DNA from: Tetrapisispora phaffii CBS 4417
Lineage: Eukaryota > Ascomycota > Saccharomycetes > Saccharomycetales > Saccharomycetaceae
Assembly (NCBI RefSeq): GCF_000236905.1
Contig: NC_016525.1
Span: forward strand, 124,001-188,000
Direction of reading: 5' to 3'
DNA: 64,000 nucleotides
Each line of letters starts with the position of its first letter. The stretch's first letter is position 1. The position numbers and the translations under genes are program-made. Shown piece by piece: positions 38,768 through 52,986 of this stretch. The notes below the pieces were generated by a model. That model was given only the letters and a program-made list of their open reading frames with translations. It did not search any database and was not told the DNA's origin.

Positions 38768-41700
38768 ATGAGTCATGATCTAACAAATGAGAACACAAGT
38801 AATGGAGGGACTATCAATTATAATGACGAGATTTCAACTATTGGAACAGCCAATGAAACAAATAAAATTGGTATGTACATTTGTTCGAAAAATGGTGTTA
38901 AAAATGTAGATTTTACAATCGATACAGATGAGTTGAAGAATGATTATTTTTTAGACTCTGAGAAGTCAATTAATATGATAAGATGGGCAGAGTTAAATAA
39001 TATCTATACAACAGTAGGAGCTTACGGAGGAGTTTCATGTATTATGTTGACCAAATTATATTATGTTATTGGAACAAATAAGGGTTCTGTACTAATTTTT
39101 AATACTAATCAATTTCTTCAAGCGATATTAATACCTAAATTATCCAATGATTTTTCAGAAGGATATTTGAAATCTCCTGTGAAGAATTTGACCACATCTA
39201 GTGATGGAACTCATTTATGTGCATCTTTAAAGACAAATGATATATTAATTTGGGATCTTAATTTAAATACAAATGAGATGGGAAATGATAATAAAAGTAT
39301 TTCAGTGCCCCTTACAGCTATTTTGCATATTACAAACCATAAAAATTTTGAAATTAATGGATTAGGGTTTCTTGGTGAAAGGCATACAGCTATAATTGTA
39401 AGTGATAACTCTGGTTCTCTCTATTATCATAGTGGGTACAGAAATCACTTATGGAATCTTATGTACACAACTAAGAAAGTGCTGACGGTAAAAAATGAGG
39501 AAAGGTTGTTAAATTCAAAAGTCCCTATATTCAGTGACAATTATCTGCAGAAATTACACTGGGTAGCCATACTTACAACTAAAACATTCAAAGTTATATC
39601 GACTCTTCCTCACCTCAATATCATATATGTCGAAAACATCATTGATTCCATTGCCCCAACATCGTATATGAACAATTGCATTTCTTGGAGCAAAAGAGGT
39701 TCAAAACTGGCATTTTCGATTGAGAATAAATTAGGAGTCTACTATTTGTCCAACGATCCCGTACATGCTAGGATAGAGAGTAATTTTACTATTACCCAAA
39801 AATGCTTACAACACATGGATGAATCTATTCTTTCCTTATATTGGATAACTGAAAATTTAATTGGCATTTTAACAATTTCTCATCAGTTCATAATATTAAG
39901 TTGTGATGAAAATATAAATTTGATCTTAAAATTAGACTTATTGCCATATAATATACCGATTCCTCCTAATAAACATTTTGGAATTATTGATAATCATGTC
40001 TATATTTTTGGTAAGTATTCTTTTATGCGTGGGAAATTCATGACATGGTCGGATATAATTTTGAATCCAGTTCAAAAAGGAGATTATATTACAGCATTGA
40101 AATTCATTGAATACTTTTTGAAACCTACATCAAATCTTAATGAGATAATTCAACTAAAATCACTTCCTATAGAAAGGTATGAACAATTTAAACGACCTTT
40201 CCATAATTTATCATTAGCAGCGATGAGATTTTTGTTGAAACAAAAGAAGGCAGACTATGATAAGATCTACGAGCTTTTGGTTTTAATCCTTAGAAATTTA
40301 AATAGATTTCCTGATTCTGATACTAAACAAATTCTCGAAAATTCACTGATAGAGAAATCATTTGAATTGTTAAATGGTGATAATCCAGAAATATTTTTTG
40401 AAGTTTTGGTTAATGTCATTTCTGAAGGATATATTAAAAAATTACCTCCAACTGTCTTTAAGGCTATTTTAAGTCATTATGCAAATTTGGAAAGGATTGA
40501 GTTAATGGAAATATTAATTGTTACTCTTGATCCACAGACATTGGATATTGATTTTGCGGTTAAACTTTGTAAAGAGCACCGACTATATAATGTACTAATA
40601 TATCTCTGGAATGTTGTATTTGCAGATTTTATAACACCATTTGTGTCCTTTATAGCACAAATTACAAAAACAAAAATTGTAAACAATCTGTTTGAAGGTA
40701 TGGGAGAGGCAAGCTTCATTGGCGTTTATGATTTGCTATCATCAATATATTGTAATTCAAGCTCACCCAGCCTAGTTCATGAATTAGAACCAAATATCAT
40801 TTCTAATGCCAAACTAAAGATAAACTATGTCTTTTTTAATGGAACTTTAGTCACTTGGCCTTATCATTCCGGTAATAAATTTCATACATGTACAGAAGCA
40901 GAAGAAGAACCAGTTTATCCTTATTTTTCTGTGCTTCTTAAACATAATTCTCAAAACCTTTTAAAAATAATTGATAAGATGTTTGAAGAAGATGCATTGT
41001 TGAATGATGACATTTTGAGGGAAGATTCTAAGAATCATAAAATGTGGGTTAATCGTCAATACATAATGGATATGCTTGTAGATATATTGAATACCGCAAG
41101 TTATCAGGAATATTATAGATTTCTTGTAATTTTTTTGGCTAAAAATATTACGAAATATCCTCAATATATTAAATTCTCTAATAATATTCTACAAAATATA
41201 ATTGATAAGATTTTTACAATAGATGTGGAAAAAAATGATGATCTGGAATTATCTTTAGAATATTTGCTGTTAGTATATGAGCCAACGAAGTTAGACGATT
41301 TTGTTCATGAATTGGAAATTAGACAATTTTTTAAAGTTTTATTTCGTTTATATCTGAAACTTAATCGCTATTCGAACTTATTACGGTTAGTATTCTCAAC
41401 AGCCAATCCAGAAGAGGAATTTGAGATTAATATCTCGAATCTTTTAGGCCTAATTTTCAACAACACAAAATCTGATCCTCTTGAAAAACCAATCATAACA
41501 AATTTTATCATAGAACATTTTGAAAAGATTTTAAACGAGAGTGATATAGATAATATAGTTAAGATTATTAATAACTATAACCCAGAAATACATCAAGCTA
41601 TTCTAACCATATCTTCTGAGGATTATCAGCTGCGATACCTGGAAAAATTATTTAATTTTAAGAGCACTGATACTTTACCACTTTGCACCTTAAAGAAAAG

Positions 41701-42619
41701 ATATGTTAATTTAAGTTGCAAATATAAGAAAGGGGTGCAGCTTGATTGTTGGCTAAAATCGGTAGATTTAACGAATGTAGATATATCTGCAATTATCAAA
41801 AATTTGAAAATTAATAATGAATATAAATCCTTAGCCATGATCCACAAATCTGTTGGTGATAATGAGGAGGCTATTGACTATACTGTGATTGCCATAAATG
41901 CTTTATTCGAAGAAAGTACTTTTGAAGAAAAGCAATTACATGAATATATTGAATTTGCTACCGGAACTGCAACATTAGCTAAGAGAGGTCTAAAAGAAGC
42001 CTGTTGGTCTAAAATTATAACATGTCTTTTTTCCATTTATACAAAGAATTCATTGACCGAAACTCAAATGATTGTATGTGGAAATATCCTAAAGAACCTT
42101 TTTATTAAACTAGCTCTTGGTCAAGAACCAAATGGTGAGGAGCATCTCGAGAGCTTTTGTTCTGTTTTAACTAACGTATTAGAGAATCAAGATGTCCTGA
42201 TGAGTAAAAGCCATGTCATGAGAAAATTATTGCAAAATGTGTTTACCGCATTTTACCTAGAGGAGCAATATTCCTCTCTTATTTTTAAGATTTTGGATGC
42301 AAATGCTTCAGGGCTTCTGATAACTTACGGAGATAAATTAATCGAGGGCTGGTCCTGTGATGTTATTCATTGTGAGGTTTGCGGCAAAAATATATGGGGC
42401 AATGGCATAAGTGATATTATATACTACATCTGGGAACAGAAAAGAAGAGATAATAATGTAGAAATTGGAAAGAATTATGATGATTTAAATTTAGTTATTT
42501 TCAGTTGTCATCACGGATTTCATTCAAAGTGCCTTAAAAACTTAGGCCAGAACAACGAAAAATATTATTGTCTCTCATGCAATGATGACAACAAAAAAAT
42601 AGATAGCTCATTTCTATAA
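38768..42619 (+). CDS. VPS8: VPS8, CORVET tethering complex subunit
   Basis: 1283 residues (1274 in S. cerevisiae). The N-terminal half is a beta-propeller-like region (VSCIMLTKLYYVIGTNKGSV), followed by alpha-solenoid sequence, and the C terminus has a RING-like zinc domain (CEVCGKNIWG...CHHGFHSKCL...YYCLSC). Vps8 is the Rab5/Vps21-binding subunit of CORVET, acting in endosome tethering. The gene lies left of EFM5 and the candidate centromere. In S. cerevisiae VPS8 (YAL002W) is two genes from CEN1, so the location fits a centromere-proximal ancestral position. Confidence 0.93.
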   Translation: MSHDLTNENTSNGGTINYNDEISTIGTANETNKIGMYICSKNGVKNVDFTIDTDELKNDYFLDSEKSINMIRWAELNNIYTTVGAYGGVSCIMLTKLYYVIGTNKGSVLIFNTNQFLQAILIPKLSNDFSEGYLKSPVKNLTTSSDGTHLCASLKTNDILIWDLNLNTNEMGNDNKSISVPLTAILHITNHKNFEINGLGFLGERHTAIIVSDNSGSLYYHSGYRNHLWNLMYTTKKVLTVKNEERLLNSKVPIFSDNYLQKLHWVAILTTKTFKVISTLPHLNIIYVENIIDSIAPTSYMNNCISWSKRGSKLAFSIENKLGVYYLSNDPVHARIESNFTITQKCLQHMDESILSLYWITENLIGILTISHQFIILSCDENINLILKLDLLPYNIPIPPNKHFGIIDNHVYIFGKYSFMRGKFMTWSDIILNPVQKGDYITALKFIEYFLKPTSNLNEIIQLKSLPIERYEQFKRPFHNLSLAAMRFLLKQKKADYDKIYELLVLILRNLNRFPDSDTKQILENSLIEKSFELLNGDNPEIFFEVLVNVISEGYIKKLPPTVFKAILSHYANLERIELMEILIVTLDPQTLDIDFAVKLCKEHRLYNVLIYLWNVVFADFITPFVSFIAQITKTKIVNNLFEGMGEASFIGVYDLLSSIYCNSSSPSLVHELEPNIISNAKLKINYVFFNGTLVTWPYHSGNKFHTCTEAEEEPVYPYFSVLLKHNSQNLLKIIDKMFEEDALLNDDILREDSKNHKMWVNRQYIMDMLVDILNTASYQEYYRFLVIFLAKNITKYPQYIKFSNNILQNIIDKIFTIDVEKNDDLELSLEYLLLVYEPTKLDDFVHELEIRQFFKVLFRLYLKLNRYSNLLRLVFSTANPEEEFEINISNLLGLIFNNTKSDPLEKPIITNFIIEHFEKILNESDIDNIVKIINNYNPEIHQAILTISSEDYQLRYLEKLFNFKSTDTLPLCTLKKRYVNLSCKYKKGVQLDCWLKSVDLTNVDISAIIKNLKINNEYKSLAMIHKSVGDNEEAIDYTVIAINALFEESTFEEKQLHEYIEFATGTATLAKRGLKEACWSKIITCLFSIYTKNSLTETQMIVCGNILKNLFIKLALGQEPNGEEHLESFCSVLTNVLENQDVLMSKSHVMRKLLQNVFTAFYLEEQYSSLIFKILDANASGLLITYGDKLIEGWSCDVIHCEVCGKNIWGNGISDIIYYIWEQKRRDNNVEIGKNYDDLNLVIFSCHHGFHSKCLKNLGQNNEKYYCLSCNDDNKKIDSSFL

Positions 42620-43219: not shown

Positions 43220-44126
43220 ATGTCAGATTCAGATTCAGATTCAGATTTAGATATTGAATTGTATGATCTCTCTTCGCTTTTAAGTGTTTGTTTTAATTGT
43301 AAAAATGATACTAACAGCTTTTAATAGAACATTGTCATCCCATGCCCTAGCTGCATTAGAGGAATTTAGACAGGAAGAGGTTAAATACCAAGAAAAATTC
43401 AGCAAACTTTTGACCAGTGCTGATGAAGAGTTTGCTCAAAAGAAAAAAGAAGAAGGTATGAACCTATTTAAAGAAGATTGGCAATTATCACAATTTTGGT
43501 ATAATGATGCCACCGCAAATATGCTCGCGGATGCCCTGTTAGAAGGTGCTGATGAGGATACCGTTATTGCTATTGTTAGTGCACCATCTGTATATGCAGC
43601 AATACTAAAGAAAAATGCAGATGAGGTACCAACTAAGCATATTCACTTATTTGAATTTGATGAACGTTTTAAATTGTTAGCTGAGAAGGATCATTTTTTC
43701 TTTTATGACTATAATAAACCATTAGAATTCAATGAGAAACTAAGGGGTAAAGTAGATAGATTATTAATAGATCCACCTTTTCTGAACGATGATTGTCAAT
43801 CAAAATGTATGTATTCATTAATTTTAAGGTAAGAAAAATTCTTCTTCTTCTTACACATAAAGAGTAAATTTACTAACTTTTTGAAATTTTTAACAGCTTC
43901 AATAACTGCAAATGCAATGCTAAAACCCAAAACCAACGAGAAAACTAAACATGGTGTTATTAAAAGTCGTTTCATTTCCTGTACTGGCGAAAGAGTCTCT
44001 GATGTAATAGCTAAATCTTATCCTGATGCTAAAGTTACTACTTTCATTCCAGAACATAAAAATGGATTAAGCAATGAGTTTAAATGTTACTCTAATTTTG
44101 AATGGAGGGGCTGGAAGTTTGAATAA
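43220..44126 (+). CDS. EFM5: EFM5, elongation factor 1A lysine methyltransferase (two introns)
   Basis: Three exons: 43220-43260, 43328-43806 and 43897-44126, giving 249 residues (248 in S. cerevisiae). Exon 1 encodes MSDSDSDSDLDIE and joins to LSSHALAALEEF. Intron 1 (67 bp) has donor GTATGA, branch point TACTAAC (43309) and acceptor TAG; intron 2 (90 bp) has GTATGT, TACTAAC (43871) and CAG. All phases agree. The fold is a class I methyltransferase of the N6-adenine-like group, with DPPF in LLIDPPFLNDDC. Efm5 trimethylates an eEF1A lysine. In S. cerevisiae EFM5 (YGR001C) borders CEN7. Confidence 0.95.
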
Positions 44127-44735
44127 ATCCTTGTAACTTATATAGAGAAAGTAACAAAATCAATAAATATGTTCACCACTTATTATTATTACTTTTATGT
44201 TTCAAAATGGCGATATAATAAGACCGAACAAGGTATAGTTGTTAAAATTTATTCTAAAAACATACATGTGATATAAGTTTCTTAATTATTAATAACAAAA
44301 AATAAATACAAGAAATAATATCAATAATATTTTACTTTTTAAATTTTTAATTTATTTATAAAATAATAATTTTAAAATAATGAACTATCCGGAAAATATT
44401 AGAATTCCGAACATGTAAAGTATGCTTGATTGGATTATGGTAACTATTTATTGTCGTAATTGTTACACATAGTAGTTTGGGATTTGTCTTCTGTTGCGTA
44501 AGTTTTGATGGTTACATGGTATTTATGTTGCATATAGACAGTTCCATATGCAGTTGTCACTTATGTTTCAATACACAAAATGACATTATGTATCTCAATT
44601 GTAATATTAAATATTGTTACATAGATTAGATGTTGTAATAATTTCGCGTTTTCCCAGGCTATGTTTTTGATTACATTATTTTAAAACTTTGCCGAATCAT
44701 TTTTATTTGACAGTTGGATGTTGTGATATTGATAC
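44127..44735. other. EFM5-NUP60 spacer, left part, holding the candidate centromere
   Basis: 609 bp from the EFM5 stop to the LTR. It contains the candidate centromere (44265-44420) and about 300 bp with no recognisable feature. Confidence 0.6.
44265..44420 (+). other. Candidate point centromere (CDEI-CDEII-CDEIII)
   Basis: A CDEI-type octamer CATGTGAT (44265-44272; RTCACRTG on the other strand) is followed by 122 bp that by count is 89 percent A+T (CDEII, 44273-44394) and then a CDEIII-like segment (44395-44420) with the essential core: TATTAGAATTCCGAAC, then three bases and TAAA. The central CCG and flanking TT and AA fit the S. cerevisiae CDEIII. CDEI is in the opposite orientation to the usual one. 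The interval lies exactly between EFM5 (which abuts CEN7 in S. cerevisiae) and NUP60 (which abuts CEN1), the shared ancestral centromere position. Motif matches are imperfect; the position is the stronger argument. Confidence 0.68.
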
Positions 44736-45141
44736 TGTCAGAATTATTGTAGTGTATGTGACAGAACTAAGAGTTTATGACACTTTGAGTCCAGAACTAA
44801 TAGATCACTTACTAATGGAAAGAAGGTCTAGAACAATCTTTCAAGTGGTAGGTGAAAATTTCTCACTACAATGTAAATGGCTACGTGATAAACACAGATG
44901 TACAATACAGCACTAAAGAGCCTAGGAGGATGAATGAACACGTACGCATGTTCATTCAACTGTCAGATTAACTCATATATAAGGAGGGCATCTAACTCTA
45001 TATAGAATAGTTTAATTGCACTAATAAAAGATCAATCGATTATTTAACTATAAAGAAGATGGACTATACTAGAGCAACTGAAGTGGCTAATGACACTAAC
45101 TTAGATGTTGGAACTACCCAACATAAGCTTGTCACTCCACA
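44736..45141 (+). mobile_element. Solo LTR, family 1 (TGTCAG...), with target duplication
   Basis: 406 bp with ends TGTCAGAATT...CTCCACA, flanked by a 5-bp duplication GATAC (44731-44735 and 45142-45146). Its first 115 bp or so are identical to the copy at 27435 and the rest is similar. It has TATATAAGG and an ATG at 45059 opening a frame to the LTR end (MDYTRATEVANDTNLDVG...), the presumed Gag start. It ends 306 bp upstream of tRNA-Pro, within the range where Ty1-like elements insert. Confidence 0.93.
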
Positions 45142-45146
45142 GATAC

Positions 45147-45447
45147 AGATCTATGGACGTATTTTAACACCATTTATGTTTAGTGGCTGTTAAAACATTG
45201 AGTTCAATTCAGAGATTGTTGTCTTATATTCGTAATATTAATATATTTCCTAAGTTTTGATGTGGTAACTCTAAAGAATATACAAACTGATAGGTTTTTC
45301 TATATCATTAAGTTATAATAGCCTTGTACTTGTAGGTTTTTAACTTTTGAGCTTACTATTAATATTATATTTATTAAAATAACAGCATATTATTATTGTA
45401 ATAGTCTCTATCAAAACTTCTTTAGGTTAACATTGAACAATAAATTA
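45147..45447. other. Spacer between LTR and tRNA-Pro
   Basis: 301 bp of AT-rich sequence; no gene or repeat recognised. Confidence 0.5.
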
Positions 45448-45556
45448 GGGCGTGTGGTCTAGTGGTATGATTCTCGCTTTGGGTAATTTCTCCAGTAAAT
45501 GGAGTTGTGCAAGTCAAATATGCGAGAGGCCCTGGGTTCAATTCCCAGCTCGCCCC
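45448..45556 (+). tRNA. tRNA-Pro (UGG), with intron
   Basis: 109 bases starting GGGCGTGTGGTCTAG and ending CTCGCCCC. Anticodon TGG is at 45480-45482 in a CTCGC/GCGAG stem, and a 37-base intron (45484-45520) starts one base 3' of it. The T arm has GGTTCAATTCC. A T-run follows at 45558. The exons match yeast tRNA-Pro(UGG) closely. Confidence 0.96.
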
Positions 45557-45744: not shown

Positions 45745-47448
45745 ATGGAGGGCAAGTCATTTCGTAGCAATTTAAGAACTGCCAAGTACCCTGATAAAAA
45801 GACTAAGAAATCTATATTTTCTAAATTTAAGCAGGTGATTGAACCGTTAATTGATAAGTTTGTGCGCCAAAATGATAATATGTCTAATGGGGATACTTCT
45901 ATCAAATTTAATCGTAGGACTGGAGAGACAGACACACGTTCTTCTTCAGTAAATTTGCCTGGTAGTTTTTTTAATCCCGATAGTTCATATACTAGAATCA
46001 TTGCAAGGGATCACCAGGATGAAACCTTAATCAATAATTTCCCAGATTCAATTAGAGATTTACATGATGAGGGAGAATGTACGATTGATGCCGATGTTTC
46101 TAATGCTAAATTATCTGCTTTTTTTGCTGAAAAGGGCGACCAACCTTTAACTGAGATTGAAAAAGAAGGTATACTCTCGATCATCAAGAGAACTGTTGGT
46201 GTGAATGAAAAGAGGAGTAACTTTGATAATAAAAGTGAAATTGAGGGAATAACATCTTCAAGGGTCTTAAAATCTGCCAATAATTCAATGTGTAGTAGCC
46301 CACTGAACCCTCCAACATTTATACCTAAATTTGATAATTTGCCATCTCCTAGAAACTTAAGTTTACCAATATATCCAAAAAGAAGACGTATTTTCGACTA
46401 TTCTAGAACACCATCGACATATAGAACCACTGTTTTAAAATATAGTTCTTTACCATCGTCATATACCGTTTCTGAAAGCACTTTACCTATCCAAGAGAAA
46501 AATGATTTTAACAAAGTAAACTCTGTTCAAAAGAAGAAAAAGAAGATTAGTAATACAGCTTCTGCATTATTATCTTTATTGGATAACCAAGAATCAGAAG
46601 TTAACGAATCATCTGAACTAGCAAACCCATATTCAGCACATGTTAGTAAACTACGTAATTATAAAAAACATCAGGTAGATAACCAAAAGGATAGTGCTCC
46701 TTTGAATATTGCTGAATATAAACCTATCAGTGTTGGTAGATCTAGCAAATTTGATTCTTACAATTCACTAAAATCAAATGAGCTAACACCATCAACTTCA
46801 AATTTTGATAGGTATAAACCAGCTAGATCTTCGTCCTTACGCTCTAGCGTAATCACGGAGGACATACCTTTATCAAAATTTGGTAATGAATCTAAAAATA
46901 GTGATTCTAACGTACCACATAATACATTAAAATTACAGAGTGCATCATCTGGTTTTATGAGTAACCCAAGCACTTTAAAAAATGAAGAAAAGAAAGTAGA
47001 AAGTAATTCTATAAAAACATTATTTGAAATGAAGCCAGTTGTAAATCCTTCTTTACCATCTTTGTCTAAGAACAATGATGCAACCATAGAACACAATAAT
47101 AATGAAAATAATGATAACTTGGAACTCGAGCACGCCGATGATTCTGTTATCAAGACGAATAATATAGATTCAGGAACTGGTATGGAACCTGTTTCAATTT
47201 TTGGCAAACCTGAAAACAGTAAAGTAGAGCAACCATTTACTTTTGGAAAGGTGACAACTTTTGATAGTAAAGTAGTCAATGCTAATTCCACTATATTTCA
47301 AAATCCAATCGCAACTCCAATTGAGAATAAATCAATAGAGGAAGAGGGGATAAAGTTCGAATTTGGTGAACCAATTGCATCCAACATAAAATTAAGTGAC
47401 GCAGATGAGTTAAAAGTAAAGAAATATACTTCGATGTTTGTCTTTTAA
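45745..47448 (+). CDS. NUP60: NUP60, nuclear basket FXF nucleoporin
   Basis: 567 residues (539 in S. cerevisiae). The N terminus is basic with a predicted amphipathic helix (SIFSKFKQVIEPLIDKF), which in Nup60 binds the inner nuclear membrane. Matching segments include SNAKLSAFFAEKGDQPLTEIE, SELANPYSAHVSKLRNYKKH and the invariant-looking YKPARSSSLRS. The C-terminal part has FG-type motifs (FGKP, FTFGK, FEFGE). Nup60 anchors Nup2 and Mlp proteins to the pore. In S. cerevisiae NUP60 (YAR002W) is right of CEN1, and here it is the first protein gene right of the candidate centromere. ERP1 follows convergently as in S. cerevisiae. Confidence 0.93.
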   Translation: MEGKSFRSNLRTAKYPDKKTKKSIFSKFKQVIEPLIDKFVRQNDNMSNGDTSIKFNRRTGETDTRSSSVNLPGSFFNPDSSYTRIIARDHQDETLINNFPDSIRDLHDEGECTIDADVSNAKLSAFFAEKGDQPLTEIEKEGILSIIKRTVGVNEKRSNFDNKSEIEGITSSRVLKSANNSMCSSPLNPPTFIPKFDNLPSPRNLSLPIYPKRRRIFDYSRTPSTYRTTVLKYSSLPSSYTVSESTLPIQEKNDFNKVNSVQKKKKKISNTASALLSLLDNQESEVNESSELANPYSAHVSKLRNYKKHQVDNQKDSAPLNIAEYKPISVGRSSKFDSYNSLKSNELTPSTSNFDRYKPARSSSLRSSVITEDIPLSKFGNESKNSDSNVPHNTLKLQSASSGFMSNPSTLKNEEKKVESNSIKTLFEMKPVVNPSLPSLSKNNDATIEHNNNENNDNLELEHADDSVIKTNNIDSGTGMEPVSIFGKPENSKVEQPFTFGKVTTFDSKVVNANSTIFQNPIATPIENKSIEEEGIKFEFGEPIASNIKLSDADELKVKKYTSMFVF

Positions 47449-47726: not shown

Positions 47727-48386
47727 TTATAAAACCTTTTGTTTAACGAAGAATGAACGTAAACTTTTCATTTGCCAAACACAGATACCAATCAAACCGC
47801 ATAATTGTAAGATAGTCCACCACATAGCTTTTGAGTTAACGGATTCTGAGATATCTCTGAATTTATATTCACGTTCTCTTACTAAAGCTTGTTCTCTTCT
47901 GATATCATCGACCTTCATATTCAAGTAGTTTACTTTTTGATGTAACGACTTCACAGTTTTCTTCTTCTTAGAATCGAATTTCGAATCACTACCAATACTG
48001 AAATCAATAGAGACCTTAGCTTTTGTTTTACCAACCCATGAACTATCAGTAGTTTCTAAACAAATTCTATGTTCACCAGAATCTAATGCAATAAAAGTGA
48101 AGTCACCTACTGGTGCGTTCTTTTGATGAACAACTCTATGGTTATCATCGAATATTTCTTCAATATCAACAACGATACCAACATTCTTAGAATCAGCATC
48201 TCTATATGATTTCAATTCCTCATCGAATGTTTGAACTGCATATTTACCTTCTAATAAAGTACCTTTAGATAATTCCTTGATAAAACATTTTCTATCACCT
48301 GTATTACCATAATAGTAGAAACCAAGCACCTGAGTAGGTAGAATTACACACAATAGTGCAAATTTAATGAAATTAACTAATTGCAT
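47727..48386 (-). CDS. ERP1: ERP1-type p24 cargo receptor
   Basis: 219 residues from ATG 48386, the same length as S. cerevisiae Erp1. It has a signal peptide (about 22 residues), a GOLD domain ([20 protein letters not shown] with a cysteine pair completed by HRICLE), a coiled coil ([17 protein letters not shown]) and one C-terminal membrane helix with a short cytosolic tail. p24 proteins shuttle in COPII/COPI vesicles and help sort cargo such as GPI proteins. ERP1 (YAR002C-A) and ERP6 (YGL002W) are duplicates in S. cerevisiae, so either symbol could apply; adjacency to NUP60 and SWD1 favours ERP1. Confidence 0.92.
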
Positions 48387-49014: not shown

Positions 49015-50415
49015 ATGAATCTGTTATTTCAAGATCCGTTCTCAGTGTTGAAAGAATATCCAGAACAATTGACACACACGATTGAGAACCCCTTGCATAC
49101 TGTGTGTATTAAATTCAGCCAATATGGGGATTATTTGGCGGTAGGCTCATCGAATGGATCAGTCATCATATTCGATATGGATACGCATAAACCAATAACG
49201 ATGTTAGGTAATCAGTTAGGTTCACATACGCGGTCTATTCAGTCTATTGAATGGTGGTCGATGGATAACAGGTTTATTCTTACGTCTTCAAGGGATTGGA
49301 CCATTAAACTATGGGATTTATCCGATTCAAAGAAGGTGATGAAAACTATACAATTTGAAGAACCGGTTTGGAATTGTAAATGGATAGATATGCCCGCAAC
49401 TGAAGGCAATGATGATTTTAAGAGAAATTTAAAATATTGTATTGTCACGACATATGATTCTAAGAATTCATATCTAGTAAATTTATCCGAAAGTGATATG
49501 GGTAATGAGTCCCCAGTTAAAAGCACTTTGGGAGAAAATACTTTTGAAATTGTTGATGAAAATGAATCGAATGAAATAGATGAAGGTAATACATTGACAA
49601 CATGCATATATCCTATTCATAAAAATTTAATAATAATAGGTACATCAAAAGGTTGGCTCAAGTTTTATAGATTAAAGTTTCAAGATGCCACCTTAAAAAT
49701 AAAATTATTATATAAGTCTAAAATCAGTAACGCAATTATAAAACATTTAGTGGTTTCAGAAAATGGTGATAAATTAGCAATTAATTCTTCCGATAGAACA
49801 ATAAGACAATATTTTTTGAATGTTAATGATGAAAATATGCAGAAAGATGATGATAATGCATCAAATGGCATCGAACTTACATTGGTTCATAAGTATCAGG
49901 ATGTTATCAATAGATTGCAATGGAATTCCATTTTTTTCAGTAATAACTCTGCTGAATATTTAATTGCATCAACTCATGGTTCATCGGCTCATGAATTATA
50001 TATATGGGAAGCAAACTCGGGTAGTTTAGTAAGGGTGCTAGAAGGTTCTCAAGAAGAATTGATGGATATAGATTGGAATTTTTATAAAATGTGCATCGCC
50101 AGCAATGGTTTAGAATCAGGGGATATATACCTTTGGTCTATTGTGATTCCACCAAAATGGAGTTCACTTGCGCCGGATTTTGAGGAAATCGAAGATAATA
50201 TCGATTATCAAGAAAAAGAAGATGAATTTGATAGAGTTGACGAAATAGAATTTCAGCAGGAACAAAACGAGGTCGAAGAAATGGAAATAGATTTGATTAC
50301 AAGAGAACAATACGATATCAGAGGCAACGATTTATTCAAACCTAGTTTTACAATCCCGCCAGATTACTTAAGAAGTATCCTCGCACAATCTCACAATAAA
50401 GTATTCCTACCCTAA
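49015..50415 (+). CDS. SWD1: SWD1, COMPASS histone H3K4 methyltransferase subunit
   Basis: 466 residues (426 in S. cerevisiae). WD40 protein with the Swd1 opening MNLLFQDPFSVLKEYPEQLT and internal repeats such as ILTSSRDWTIKLWDLS and ASTHGSSAHELYIWE. The WSIVIPPKWSSLAPDFEE segment and acidic C-terminal region are typical of Swd1/RbBP5, which joins Swd3 and Set1 in the nucleus. The extra length comes from short insertions between repeats. It follows ERP1 as YAR003W follows YAR002C-A in S. cerevisiae. Confidence 0.96.
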   Translation: MNLLFQDPFSVLKEYPEQLTHTIENPLHTVCIKFSQYGDYLAVGSSNGSVIIFDMDTHKPITMLGNQLGSHTRSIQSIEWWSMDNRFILTSSRDWTIKLWDLSDSKKVMKTIQFEEPVWNCKWIDMPATEGNDDFKRNLKYCIVTTYDSKNSYLVNLSESDMGNESPVKSTLGENTFEIVDENESNEIDEGNTLTTCIYPIHKNLIIIGTSKGWLKFYRLKFQDATLKIKLLYKSKISNAIIKHLVVSENGDKLAINSSDRTIRQYFLNVNDENMQKDDDNASNGIELTLVHKYQDVINRLQWNSIFFSNNSAEYLIASTHGSSAHELYIWEANSGSLVRVLEGSQEELMDIDWNFYKMCIASNGLESGDIYLWSIVIPPKWSSLAPDFEEIEDNIDYQEKEDEFDRVDEIEFQQEQNEVEEMEIDLITREQYDIRGNDLFKPSFTIPPDYLRSILAQSHNKVFLP

Positions 50416-51090: not shown

Positions 51091-52986
51091 ATGTCATATA
51101 ATCCATTTATGAATAATACGCCGCACTCGTCGCCAATTAAAAATACACAGGATAGGAGCAGTGATAACAATAATGGATACCGGCTCAGAAAGAAACAGTC
51201 CTCCAATTATGCAAACGCATCTCCAGTCAGTTCTATTTCCTCGACATCACAGCTCTTGACTTCACCATTCAAAAGATCCAGGAATGCAGGGTCAAGGATA
51301 TATAATGATAGATTTATACCGAGCAGGACTGCAATAGATTTAAATACCATGATGTCCATCACTAATACGAATATTGACTACCAAAGTAATGAGAAGGATT
51401 CCCTATCAATCACTGAAGACCAAATAGAATTACAAAAGGAAAGAGAGGCTAATCATACTTTCGATACCATTTTAAAAAATGAGTTATTTGGTGAGAAAAT
51501 TATAAATGATTTTAATAGTATCGAAAGTAGTATAGATCGTATTCAAAATACAAAAAGCTTAGTACGAATAAAAAACAATATTAGACTGAATGATTCATTA
51601 CCAACATTACATAACCCCCTTAACAATTCGACTTCTAGTTATGGAAATAGAAGCGATTATGATGACGATGACAATACTGATGAAGTTGAAACAGATGTTG
51701 ATGATTTCGACTCAGAAGAGAACGCAAGTGGGAATAACAATAGGGTCCCAAGTACACCACCTCACAATGTAAATAGAACAAGTGATTATTCATCTAATTC
51801 AGAACCTGTGACTCCCAGACGATTAAATATGTCCCAGCAAGCTGATCAACAGAGTTTCTTGAGCAATTACGGAAGAGGTGCGAGTTTGTTGACATACACA
51901 GAACGTAGAGCAACTAGGCCGTCTACCGAGTCAATATTACAAACACAATTTAACAATTCCTCTTCTGTTGTACGTCCTGATTCTAAACAATTGTTATTAT
52001 CCCCAAAAAAGAAAACAAGACAAATTGCAAAAATACCCTACAGAGTTCTAGATGCACCATCTCTTGCAGACGATTTTTATTATGACCTTATAGATTGGTC
52101 TAGCCGTGATGTTTTAGCTGTAGCTCTAGGGAAGTCCATATTTTTAACTGACAATAACAATGGAGATGTTATTCATTTATGCGACACAGATAATGAATTT
52201 ACAAGTCTGAATTGGGTAGGGACAGGTTCTCATTTAGCTGTGGGTCAGTCAAATGGATTAGTGGAAATTTATGATATAATTAAAAGGAAATGCATTAGAA
52301 CATTATCAGGTCACAGTGATAGGGTATCATGCCTTTCATGGAACAATCACATATTGAGCTCAGGAAGTCGAGATAGAAAGATTTTGCATAGAGACGTAAG
52401 ATCCCCTGATTCGTACTTCACTCAAATTGAAACACATACTCAAGAAGTGTGCGGACTCAAATGGAATATTGAAGACAATAGACTGGCATCTGGAGGGAAT
52501 GATAATATTGTTTATGTTTATGATGGTGTAAATAGCAAACCTACATTGATGTTTACAGAACATACGGCCGCAGTTAAAGCAATGACATGGTCACCTCATA
52601 GAAGAGGTATTTTGGCAACTGGTGGTGGTACTGCTGATAGGAGGCTTAAAATTTGGAATGTGAATACATCTGCAAAATTAAATGATGTCGATTCTGGTTC
52701 CCAAATATGTAATATGATTTGGTCAAAGAATACTGATGAAATTGTGACATCGCATGGTTACTCAAGATATAATTTGACCTTATGGAATTATCCAACCCTT
52801 GAGCCAGTTGCCATATTTAAAGGCCATAGTTTCAGAGTCCTTCATCTCACGCTATCTGAGGATGGGACTACTGTAGTGTCTGGTGCAGGTGATGAAACGT
52901 TAAGATATTGGAAAATATTTAATAAACCGAAGGCGAAAGCACAACCAGAATCATTAATTTTTGAATCATTTTATAATATTAGATAA
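51091..52986 (+). CDS. CDH1: CDH1 (HCT1), APC/C activator
   Basis: 631 residues (566 in S. cerevisiae). The C-box is at residues 73-79 (DRFIPSR), a Ser/Asp-rich linker follows, and seven WD40 blades start after KIPYRVLDAPSLADDFYYDL. The C-terminal Ile-Arg tail (FYNIR) docks on the APC/C. Cdh1 targets mitotic cyclins and other D- and KEN-box proteins from late mitosis to G1. Several SP/TP sites in the N-terminal half suit Cdk inhibition. CDH1 (YGL003C) belongs to the YGL track and follows the YAR genes here. Confidence 0.96.
   Translation: MSYNPFMNNTPHSSPIKNTQDRSSDNNNGYRLRKKQSSNYANASPVSSISSTSQLLTSPFKRSRNAGSRIYNDRFIPSRTAIDLNTMMSITNTNIDYQSNEKDSLSITEDQIELQKEREANHTFDTILKNELFGEKIINDFNSIESSIDRIQNTKSLVRIKNNIRLNDSLPTLHNPLNNSTSSYGNRSDYDDDDNTDEVETDVDDFDSEENASGNNNRVPSTPPHNVNRTSDYSSNSEPVTPRRLNMSQQADQQSFLSNYGRGASLLTYTERRATRPSTESILQTQFNNSSSVVRPDSKQLLLSPKKKTRQIAKIPYRVLDAPSLADDFYYDLIDWSSRDVLAVALGKSIFLTDNNNGDVIHLCDTDNEFTSLNWVGTGSHLAVGQSNGLVEIYDIIKRKCIRTLSGHSDRVSCLSWNNHILSSGSRDRKILHRDVRSPDSYFTQIETHTQEVCGLKWNIEDNRLASGGNDNIVYVYDGVNSKPTLMFTEHTAAVKAMTWSPHRRGILATGGGTADRRLKIWNVNTSAKLNDVDSGSQICNMIWSKNTDEIVTSHGYSRYNLTLWNYPTLEPVAIFKGHSFRVLHLTLSEDGTTVVSGAGDETLRYWKIFNKPKAKAQPESLIFESFYNIR

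Follow-up and report, generated by a model that had tools for sequence, protein, structure and literature searches.

A putative point centromere of conventional build at the ancestral CEN1/CEN7 position in Tetrapisispora phaffii

At point centromeres Cbf1 sits on CDEI, as described by Helsen and colleagues (PMC12925627), and CBF3 together with Scm3 acts at CDEIII and brings Cse4 to CDEII, according to the accounts in PMC12711049 and PMC4533239. The text of PMC12925627 describes CDEII as consistent in length within genomes and as ranging from ~50 to nearly 200 bp in the clade; it already reports two length classes in one genome for some related genera, among them Vanderwaltozyma (~75 and 85 bp), and proposes that CDEII steps of ~10 bp keep CDEI in the orientation needed by Cbf1. 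Henningerozyma (Tetrapisispora) blattae, by the description given there, resembles the locus treated here in having a long CDEII, which in that species reaches nearly 200 bp. The atlas covers 138 Saccharomycetaceae and its main text does not name the genus Tetrapisispora; it may well include T. phaffii, and the present locus may already be catalogued in its supplements. A literature search on T. phaffii centromeres and CDEIII returned no paper with a title or opening abstract on them. The unconventional point centromeres of Naumovozyma, as portrayed in PMC4533239, are likewise short and sequence-defined, but they have no CDEI-III, and most of them are found away from the ancestral positions.

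Positions 44263-44420 of a 64-kb stretch of the T. phaffii genome (C6:124001-188000, called the window throughout) very probably constitute, judged by sequence, the point centromere of chromosome C6, in the ancestral place from which S. cerevisiae CEN1 and CEN7 both derive. We favour this identity because of the anatomy of the site, its spacing, its recurrence on other chromosomes, its synteny and its orientation. It shares with CEN1 and CEN7 the orthologous position (EFM5/NUP60), the orientation, the CCGAA core, the AT-rich CDEII and the E-box CDEI, and it differs from them in having a CDEII of 124 bp (against 78-86 bp in S. cerevisiae). Further differences from S. cerevisiae are the near-palindromic CDEI of T. 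phaffii, with its better-kept half towards CDEII, and the right part of CDEIII. In contrast to the Naumovozyma type (PMC4533239), the window site has CDEI-III at the ancestral position, an assignment made by the presence of these elements. Overall, it appears to be a conventional point centromere, ordinary in kind, that has kept the ancestral place and direction.

Anatomy of the site and its genomic neighbourhood

The original prediction, made from the letters of the window, had described a CDEI-type element, 122 bp at 89 percent A+T and a CDEIII-like segment followed by TAAA, and all of these were recovered in place. The CDEI-type CATGTGAT occupies 44265-44272 (E-box hexamer CATGTG, 44265-44270), the 122 bp at 44273-44394 have an A+T content of 89.3%, and the CCGAA core (44407-44411) lies inside AATATTAGAATTCCGAACATGTAAAG (44395-44420), with TAAA three bases past TTCCGAAC. 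As delimited here, all on the forward strand, CDEI spans 44263-44272 (E-box TACATGTGAT, which aligns with the CDEI of seven other loci) and carries on its CDEII side the TGAT half, the one better kept across loci; CDEII spans 44271-44394 (124 bp, 89.5% A+T, with 136 bp from the E-box end to the CCGAA start), and CDEIII spans 44395-44420 and faces NUP60. The border between the last two follows PMC3141009, which counts CDEIII as 26 bp; we place CCGAA at positions 13-17 of it, as we infer from the statement in that paper that S. cerevisiae CDEIII has G at 2 and 8, combined with known sequences.

The invariant CDEI bases CA..TG given in PMC3141009 are present in CATGTG (44265-44270), the A+T content of the 124-bp CDEII lies inside the 76-98% given there, and the invariant CCGAA of CDEIII stands at 44407. 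Set against the CDEI letters printed in the same source (NNCAVBTG, CDEIII strand), the forward frame TACATGTG has T at V. The reverse frame, ATCACATG, agrees with RTCACRTG, the consensus of S. cerevisiae, but has A at the printed B; thus NNCAVBTG as printed does not cover the S. cerevisiae consensus either.

The left neighbour of the site is EFM5, of the N6-adenine methyltransferase family (43305-44126, forward strand; PF10237, E 1.4e-40), read as two coding pieces at 43305-43832 and about 43897-44126 (the frame of the second read by eye). The apparent intron between them (43830-43896) contains TACTAAC and AACAG, spotted by eye, and a second intron is possible near 43270-43315, with a first exon possibly further upstream. 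Beyond EFM5 on the left lies VPS8 (38768-42619, forward strand; PF12816, E 6e-47), on the side where it had been predicted. On the right, a spacer of 1 kb (44430-45440), in which weak short repeats were all that was seen and which is possibly a decayed insertion beside the tRNA gene, leads to that gene (45448-45556, forward strand; RF00005, 48.1 bits). Its length of 109 bp means that it probably contains an intron; ARAGORN made no call over 45448-45556. The claim that EFM5 and NUP60 flank the interval directly therefore stands for EFM5, whereas NUP60 is separated from it by the tRNA gene and is the next protein gene (45745-47448, forward strand).

NUP60 was named by homology to proteins so called in their sources: the search gave 20 rows including the protein itself, with source-named NUP60 in K. 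africana, T. globosa, K. lactis, E. cymbalariae and H. naganishii, and the best named relative came from Vanderwaltozyma polyspora (name incomplete, 'NUP6'); a comparison with PDB sequences gave no match. Further synteny markers follow on the right, namely a p24-family gene of the ERP1/ERP6 type (47727-48386, reverse strand; PF01105), a WD40 gene that is probably SWD1 (49015-50415, forward strand; PF00400) and a CDC20/CDH1-type WD40 gene (51091-52986, forward strand; PF24807, E 2.5e-117). The names SWD1, ERP1/6 and CDH1 are taken over from S. cerevisiae. EFM5 and NUP60 are the S. cerevisiae neighbours at CEN7 and CEN1. These flanks, together with Table 1 of PMC3141009, where CEN1 and CEN7 trace to one ancestral centromere, bear out the predicted ancestral location. 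CDEIII points towards NUP60 and CDEI towards EFM5, the same orientation as at CEN1 (+) and CEN7 (-), with strands from PMC3141009. The window site and a second locus, C11 (TFC3-CEN-ERG26), fit the two copies of the CEN1/CEN7 ancestor in T. phaffii.

The same layout on other chromosomes

The genome (12,115,070 bases in 17 contigs; 16 chromosomes expected for T. phaffii, the number listed in a table of the review PMC5499181) was searched for families of genes that sit at S. cerevisiae centromeres (trehalase, citrate synthase, dynamin, polo box, TFIIIC B-block, Rer1, RPL14 and the RRP6 N-terminus). Beside the gene places, sites were picked as CCGAA behind an AT-rich stretch (with several candidates in some stretches) and then by an E-box; CCGAA is itself a selection criterion for these other loci. 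The 13 gene places yielded six clear loci (trehalase, C1 and C8; dynamin, C5 and C7; citrate synthase, C16; TFIIIC, C11), two islands without clear CDEI (C15 via Rer1/DOM34 and C10 via RRP6) and five places with no centromere layout in the 3-19 kb scanned (citrate synthase on C2, polo-box on C10 and C6, RPL14 on C3, and a third, weak match to the trehalase family on C11). The seventh other locus, C9:506234, has the same layout and was reached with a short CDEIII pattern derived from the loci found before it; checked after the pattern match, it proved to be flanked by NOP16 on one side and by TRAP-alpha and BTB genes on the opposite side, the S. cerevisiae CEN5/CEN9 neighbourhood. The far side of the C16 site holds EAP30/SNF8-type and pseudouridine-synthase (DEG1-type) genes, neighbours at S. 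cerevisiae CEN16 and CEN6.

The E-box / AT-rich / CCGAA layout is thus found on eight chromosomes, the window included. The original prediction had made its case depend on a matching pattern elsewhere in the genome, and the seven other chromosomes supply it, with one spacing rule, a common CDEIII and positions of known centromeres. Eight clear and two probable loci each lie on a separate contig (the contigs being scored in stretches), so that centromeres are located or suggested for 10 of the 16 expected chromosomes; C2, C3, C4, C12, C13 and C14 are those with none placed. At C2:897000-906500 a citrate synthase-flavodoxin (YCP4-like) pair adjoins a CBF5-type gene, a likely breakpoint, and the scan of C2:897000-916300 gave no centromere layout; in S. 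cerevisiae this pair lies near CEN3. The genome also holds two polo-box genes (C6:536072-536215 and C10:96559-97014), perhaps a retained duplicate, where S. cerevisiae has one (CDC5).

The distance from the E-box end to CCGAA is 136 bp at C6 and C8, 137 at C16, 145 at C7, 147 at C5, C11 and C9, and 148 at C1. Subtracting 12 gives CDEII lengths of 124, 124 and 125 bp (C6, C8 and C16) and of 133, 135, 135, 135 and 136 bp (C7, C5, C11, C9 and C1), nearly uniform within the genome as two classes (124-125 and 133-136 bp); C10 and C15 were left out of this count because CDEI is unclear there. The classes fit the published idea of steps of ~10 bp, and Vanderwaltozyma (PMC12925627) likewise has two of them ~10 bp apart, at the shorter lengths given above. 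The site had been predicted to be a variant centromere: its CDEII is indeed longer than that of S. cerevisiae, but within the clade range described in PMC12925627 it is no oddity. CDEIII also has a right part common to the loci: all eight carry T at positions +10, +12 and +15 after CCGAA, and their rough consensus is TCCGAANATATAATTTGTTG.

The CDEI sequences are TACATGTGAT, TTCATGTGAT, ATCACATGAC and TACACATGAA at C6, C8, C1 and C16, and ATCATATGAC, ATCATGTGAT, AGCACGGGAT and ATAACGTGAC at C5, C7, C11 and C9 (in that order). The half on the CDEII side reads TGAY in six of the eight (the misses being TGAA at C16 and GGAT at C11), the outer half reads RTCA in three, and C9 (AACGTG) and C11 (CACGGG) each depart from one of the four invariant CDEI bases. 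CDEI in this genome thus tends (over eight loci) to be a near-palindrome whose CDEII side is the better kept; in the S. cerevisiae consensus, RTCACRTG, it is the outer side. The predicted inversion of CDEI in the window is accordingly not peculiar to this locus, since the near-palindrome is genome-wide.

Scores, pattern searches and competing explanations

Candidate sites were scored with a spaced model that combines position weights for CDEI and CDEIII with an A+T term (spacing 128-156); the motif weights came from the seven other loci, and the spacing range and A+T term were set with all eight in view. Under this leave-one-out scheme the window site scores 47.7 and the second-best site in the 64 kb 8.8, against a mean best score of 16.5 (maximum 30.8) in 40 block-Markov randomised windows. 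Each of the seven other loci, when left out in turn, tops its own stretch (401 to 9,901 bp) with scores of 34.4-55.3, and the best scores in other scanned DNA were 29.9 (inside the C15 island), 28.4 and 27.9. By leave-one-out score (12.8 bits; range 9.9-19.5) only two of the eight CDEIII are weaker than that of the window. A separate profile model also puts the window site on top (51.5 bits, against 9.0 for the next); as the window was in its training set, we relied on the leave-one-out spaced model instead.

CDEIII patterns used alone were barely above their reversed controls. The pattern TCCGAANMWDKWWDNTNTNTTG, written from these loci, has six exact matches in 12.1 Mb, all at these centromeres, and 393 matches when two mismatches are allowed, where the reversed control has 251; of its 21 one-mismatch matches one is the C8 locus and two are islands outside the training set (C10:84019 and C15:39001), the C15 island having been known before this search. 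Seven further loci among the 100 of 393 matches listed were examined, and C10:84019 was the only AT-rich island, the other six not being centromere-like. The remaining patterns were set aside. The first CDEIII pattern, TTCCGAANNNGTAAA with one mismatch, gave 93 matches against 108 for the reversed control, and the 33 examined showed the layout nowhere besides the window. The short pattern from the first loci gave 529 matches (436 in the control), of which 100 were listed; its ten exact matches include the known loci C1 and C8, the new centromere on C9, C5:625830 within a stretch already scanned, and C12:57650, which is not a centromere. The pattern TCCGAANAWDTA gave 52 matches (44 in the control), six of them centromere loci; 20 others were examined by eye and none was convincing, C3:465263 and C10:459108 having 82% A+T upstream.

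Could chance CDE matches in an ordinary AT-rich stretch, whether intergenic or a replication origin, account for the site? Taken singly, the motifs are at chance level in the window: CAYGTGAY has two matches where 6.9 are expected, and TTCCGAANNNNTAAA has one exact match and three with up to one mismatch (3.0 expected), so that neither motif alone is remarkable and it is their combination that is. Other AT-rich stretches occur in the window as well (e.g., 38406 and 36996), although the 124-bp stretch with the highest A+T content of the whole 64 kb begins at 44258 (91%), and the A+T content of CDEII is reached by only 0.07% of stretches of that length. With a joint spaced score far above those of the randomised windows, and with the layout repeated on other chromosomes where synteny places a centromere, an explanation by chance is scarcely credible. 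It is also very improbable that the site is a dead centromere, the remnant of the ancestral one on a chromosome whose active centromere lies elsewhere. Related yeasts are documented to have lost centromeres in the course of chromosome fusion (PMC3141009); here, however, all three elements are present, the score falls among those of the other seven loci, both the position and the direction are the ancestral ones, and the chromosome count fits a species that kept all 16 centromeres, though 10 are located, the test for a dead centromere covering the 64-kb window of an 816-kb contig.

If the site is the centromere that we take it to be, then by the known mechanism Cbf1 would bind the E-box of CDEI, the CBF3 complex would bind CDEIII through CCGAA and with Scm3 bring in Cse4, and the A+T-rich CDEII would wrap one Cse4 nucleosome on which the kinetochore would form.

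Orientation, paired CDEIII-like sites and what the locus means

The direction from CDEI to CDEIII relative to the flanking genes was compared with S. cerevisiae (centromere strands from Table 1 of PMC3141009). It is the same at C6, C8, C16, C5 and C9 and opposite at C1, C7 and C11, although at these three the genes on both sides are those expected: trehalase and UTP20 at C1; dynamin and, opposite, the Snf7-type DID4, S6-type MRP17 and PAP2-type AUR1 at C7; TFC3 and, opposite, ERG26 and RFA1 at C11. The remaining neighbours and the lengths of the frames (721 and 767 codons) led us to equate C7 with the VPS1 locus and C5 with the DNM1 locus. Since the far side of C8 holds other genes (sulfate permease, ETF alpha) and the far genes of C5 (Ssl1, adaptin) are turned, only the near gene was used at these two. 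Orientation changes are already recorded in other yeasts (Table 1 of PMC3141009). All three reversed centromeres belong to the long CDEII class, too few to test.

Paired CDEIII-like sites were seen at three places. The AT-rich island at C10:84039-84218, between RRP6 and a PHO80-type cyclin (CEN15 neighbours), has inward-facing CDEIII-like sites at both ends (22.2 and 14.1 bits, 179 bp apart); its pattern match at C10:84019 was found first and the RRP6 search ran afterwards. The island at C15:39017-39204, beside DOM34 (eRF1 domains; a CEN14 neighbour), has CCGAA at both ends, also 179 bp apart, with one strong (16.1 bits) and one weak site (7.8 bits). Neither island has a recognisable CDEI at the usual distance. 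At C5:625012-625177 a second, inverted CDEIII-like site, TTTCCGAACC, lies seven bases outside the E-box and 161 bp from the main CCGAA; the two sites score 22.9 and 16.9 bits, and the second falls to 13.7 once C5 is excluded from the training set. As a control, one of 53 other AT-rich islands has a CDEIII-like site of at least 12 bits, against 2 of the 10 centromere islands. The exception (C5:436811, 16.8 bits, beside an AT-rich island away from the C5 centromere) is stronger than the second site of C10 and than that of C5 with C5 left out; a second CDEIII as a general rule was rejected on this account, and the double sites at C5 and C10 are only suggestive.

That T. phaffii point centromeres turn round in place, with C1, C7 and C11 reversed and the double-CDEIII loci C10 and C5 resembling intermediates, is an unlikely though conceivable reading of these observations. 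Were centromeres to turn in this way, the genome-wide near-palindrome of CDEI would let either end serve. The reversed centromeres and the CDEIII-like sites at both ends are, tentatively, the only part of this work that might be new.

The window locus itself is what yeast biologists would expect. It offers a sequence-level definition of a centromere in a post-duplication lineage with a long CDEII, and with C11 it brings together both whole-genome-duplication copies of the CEN1/CEN7 ancestor (124 bp with the orientation kept in the window, 135 bp and reversed at C11). Both this pair and the existence of two length classes are relevant to a published proposal, by which centromeres change individually and each step is about one helical turn of DNA.
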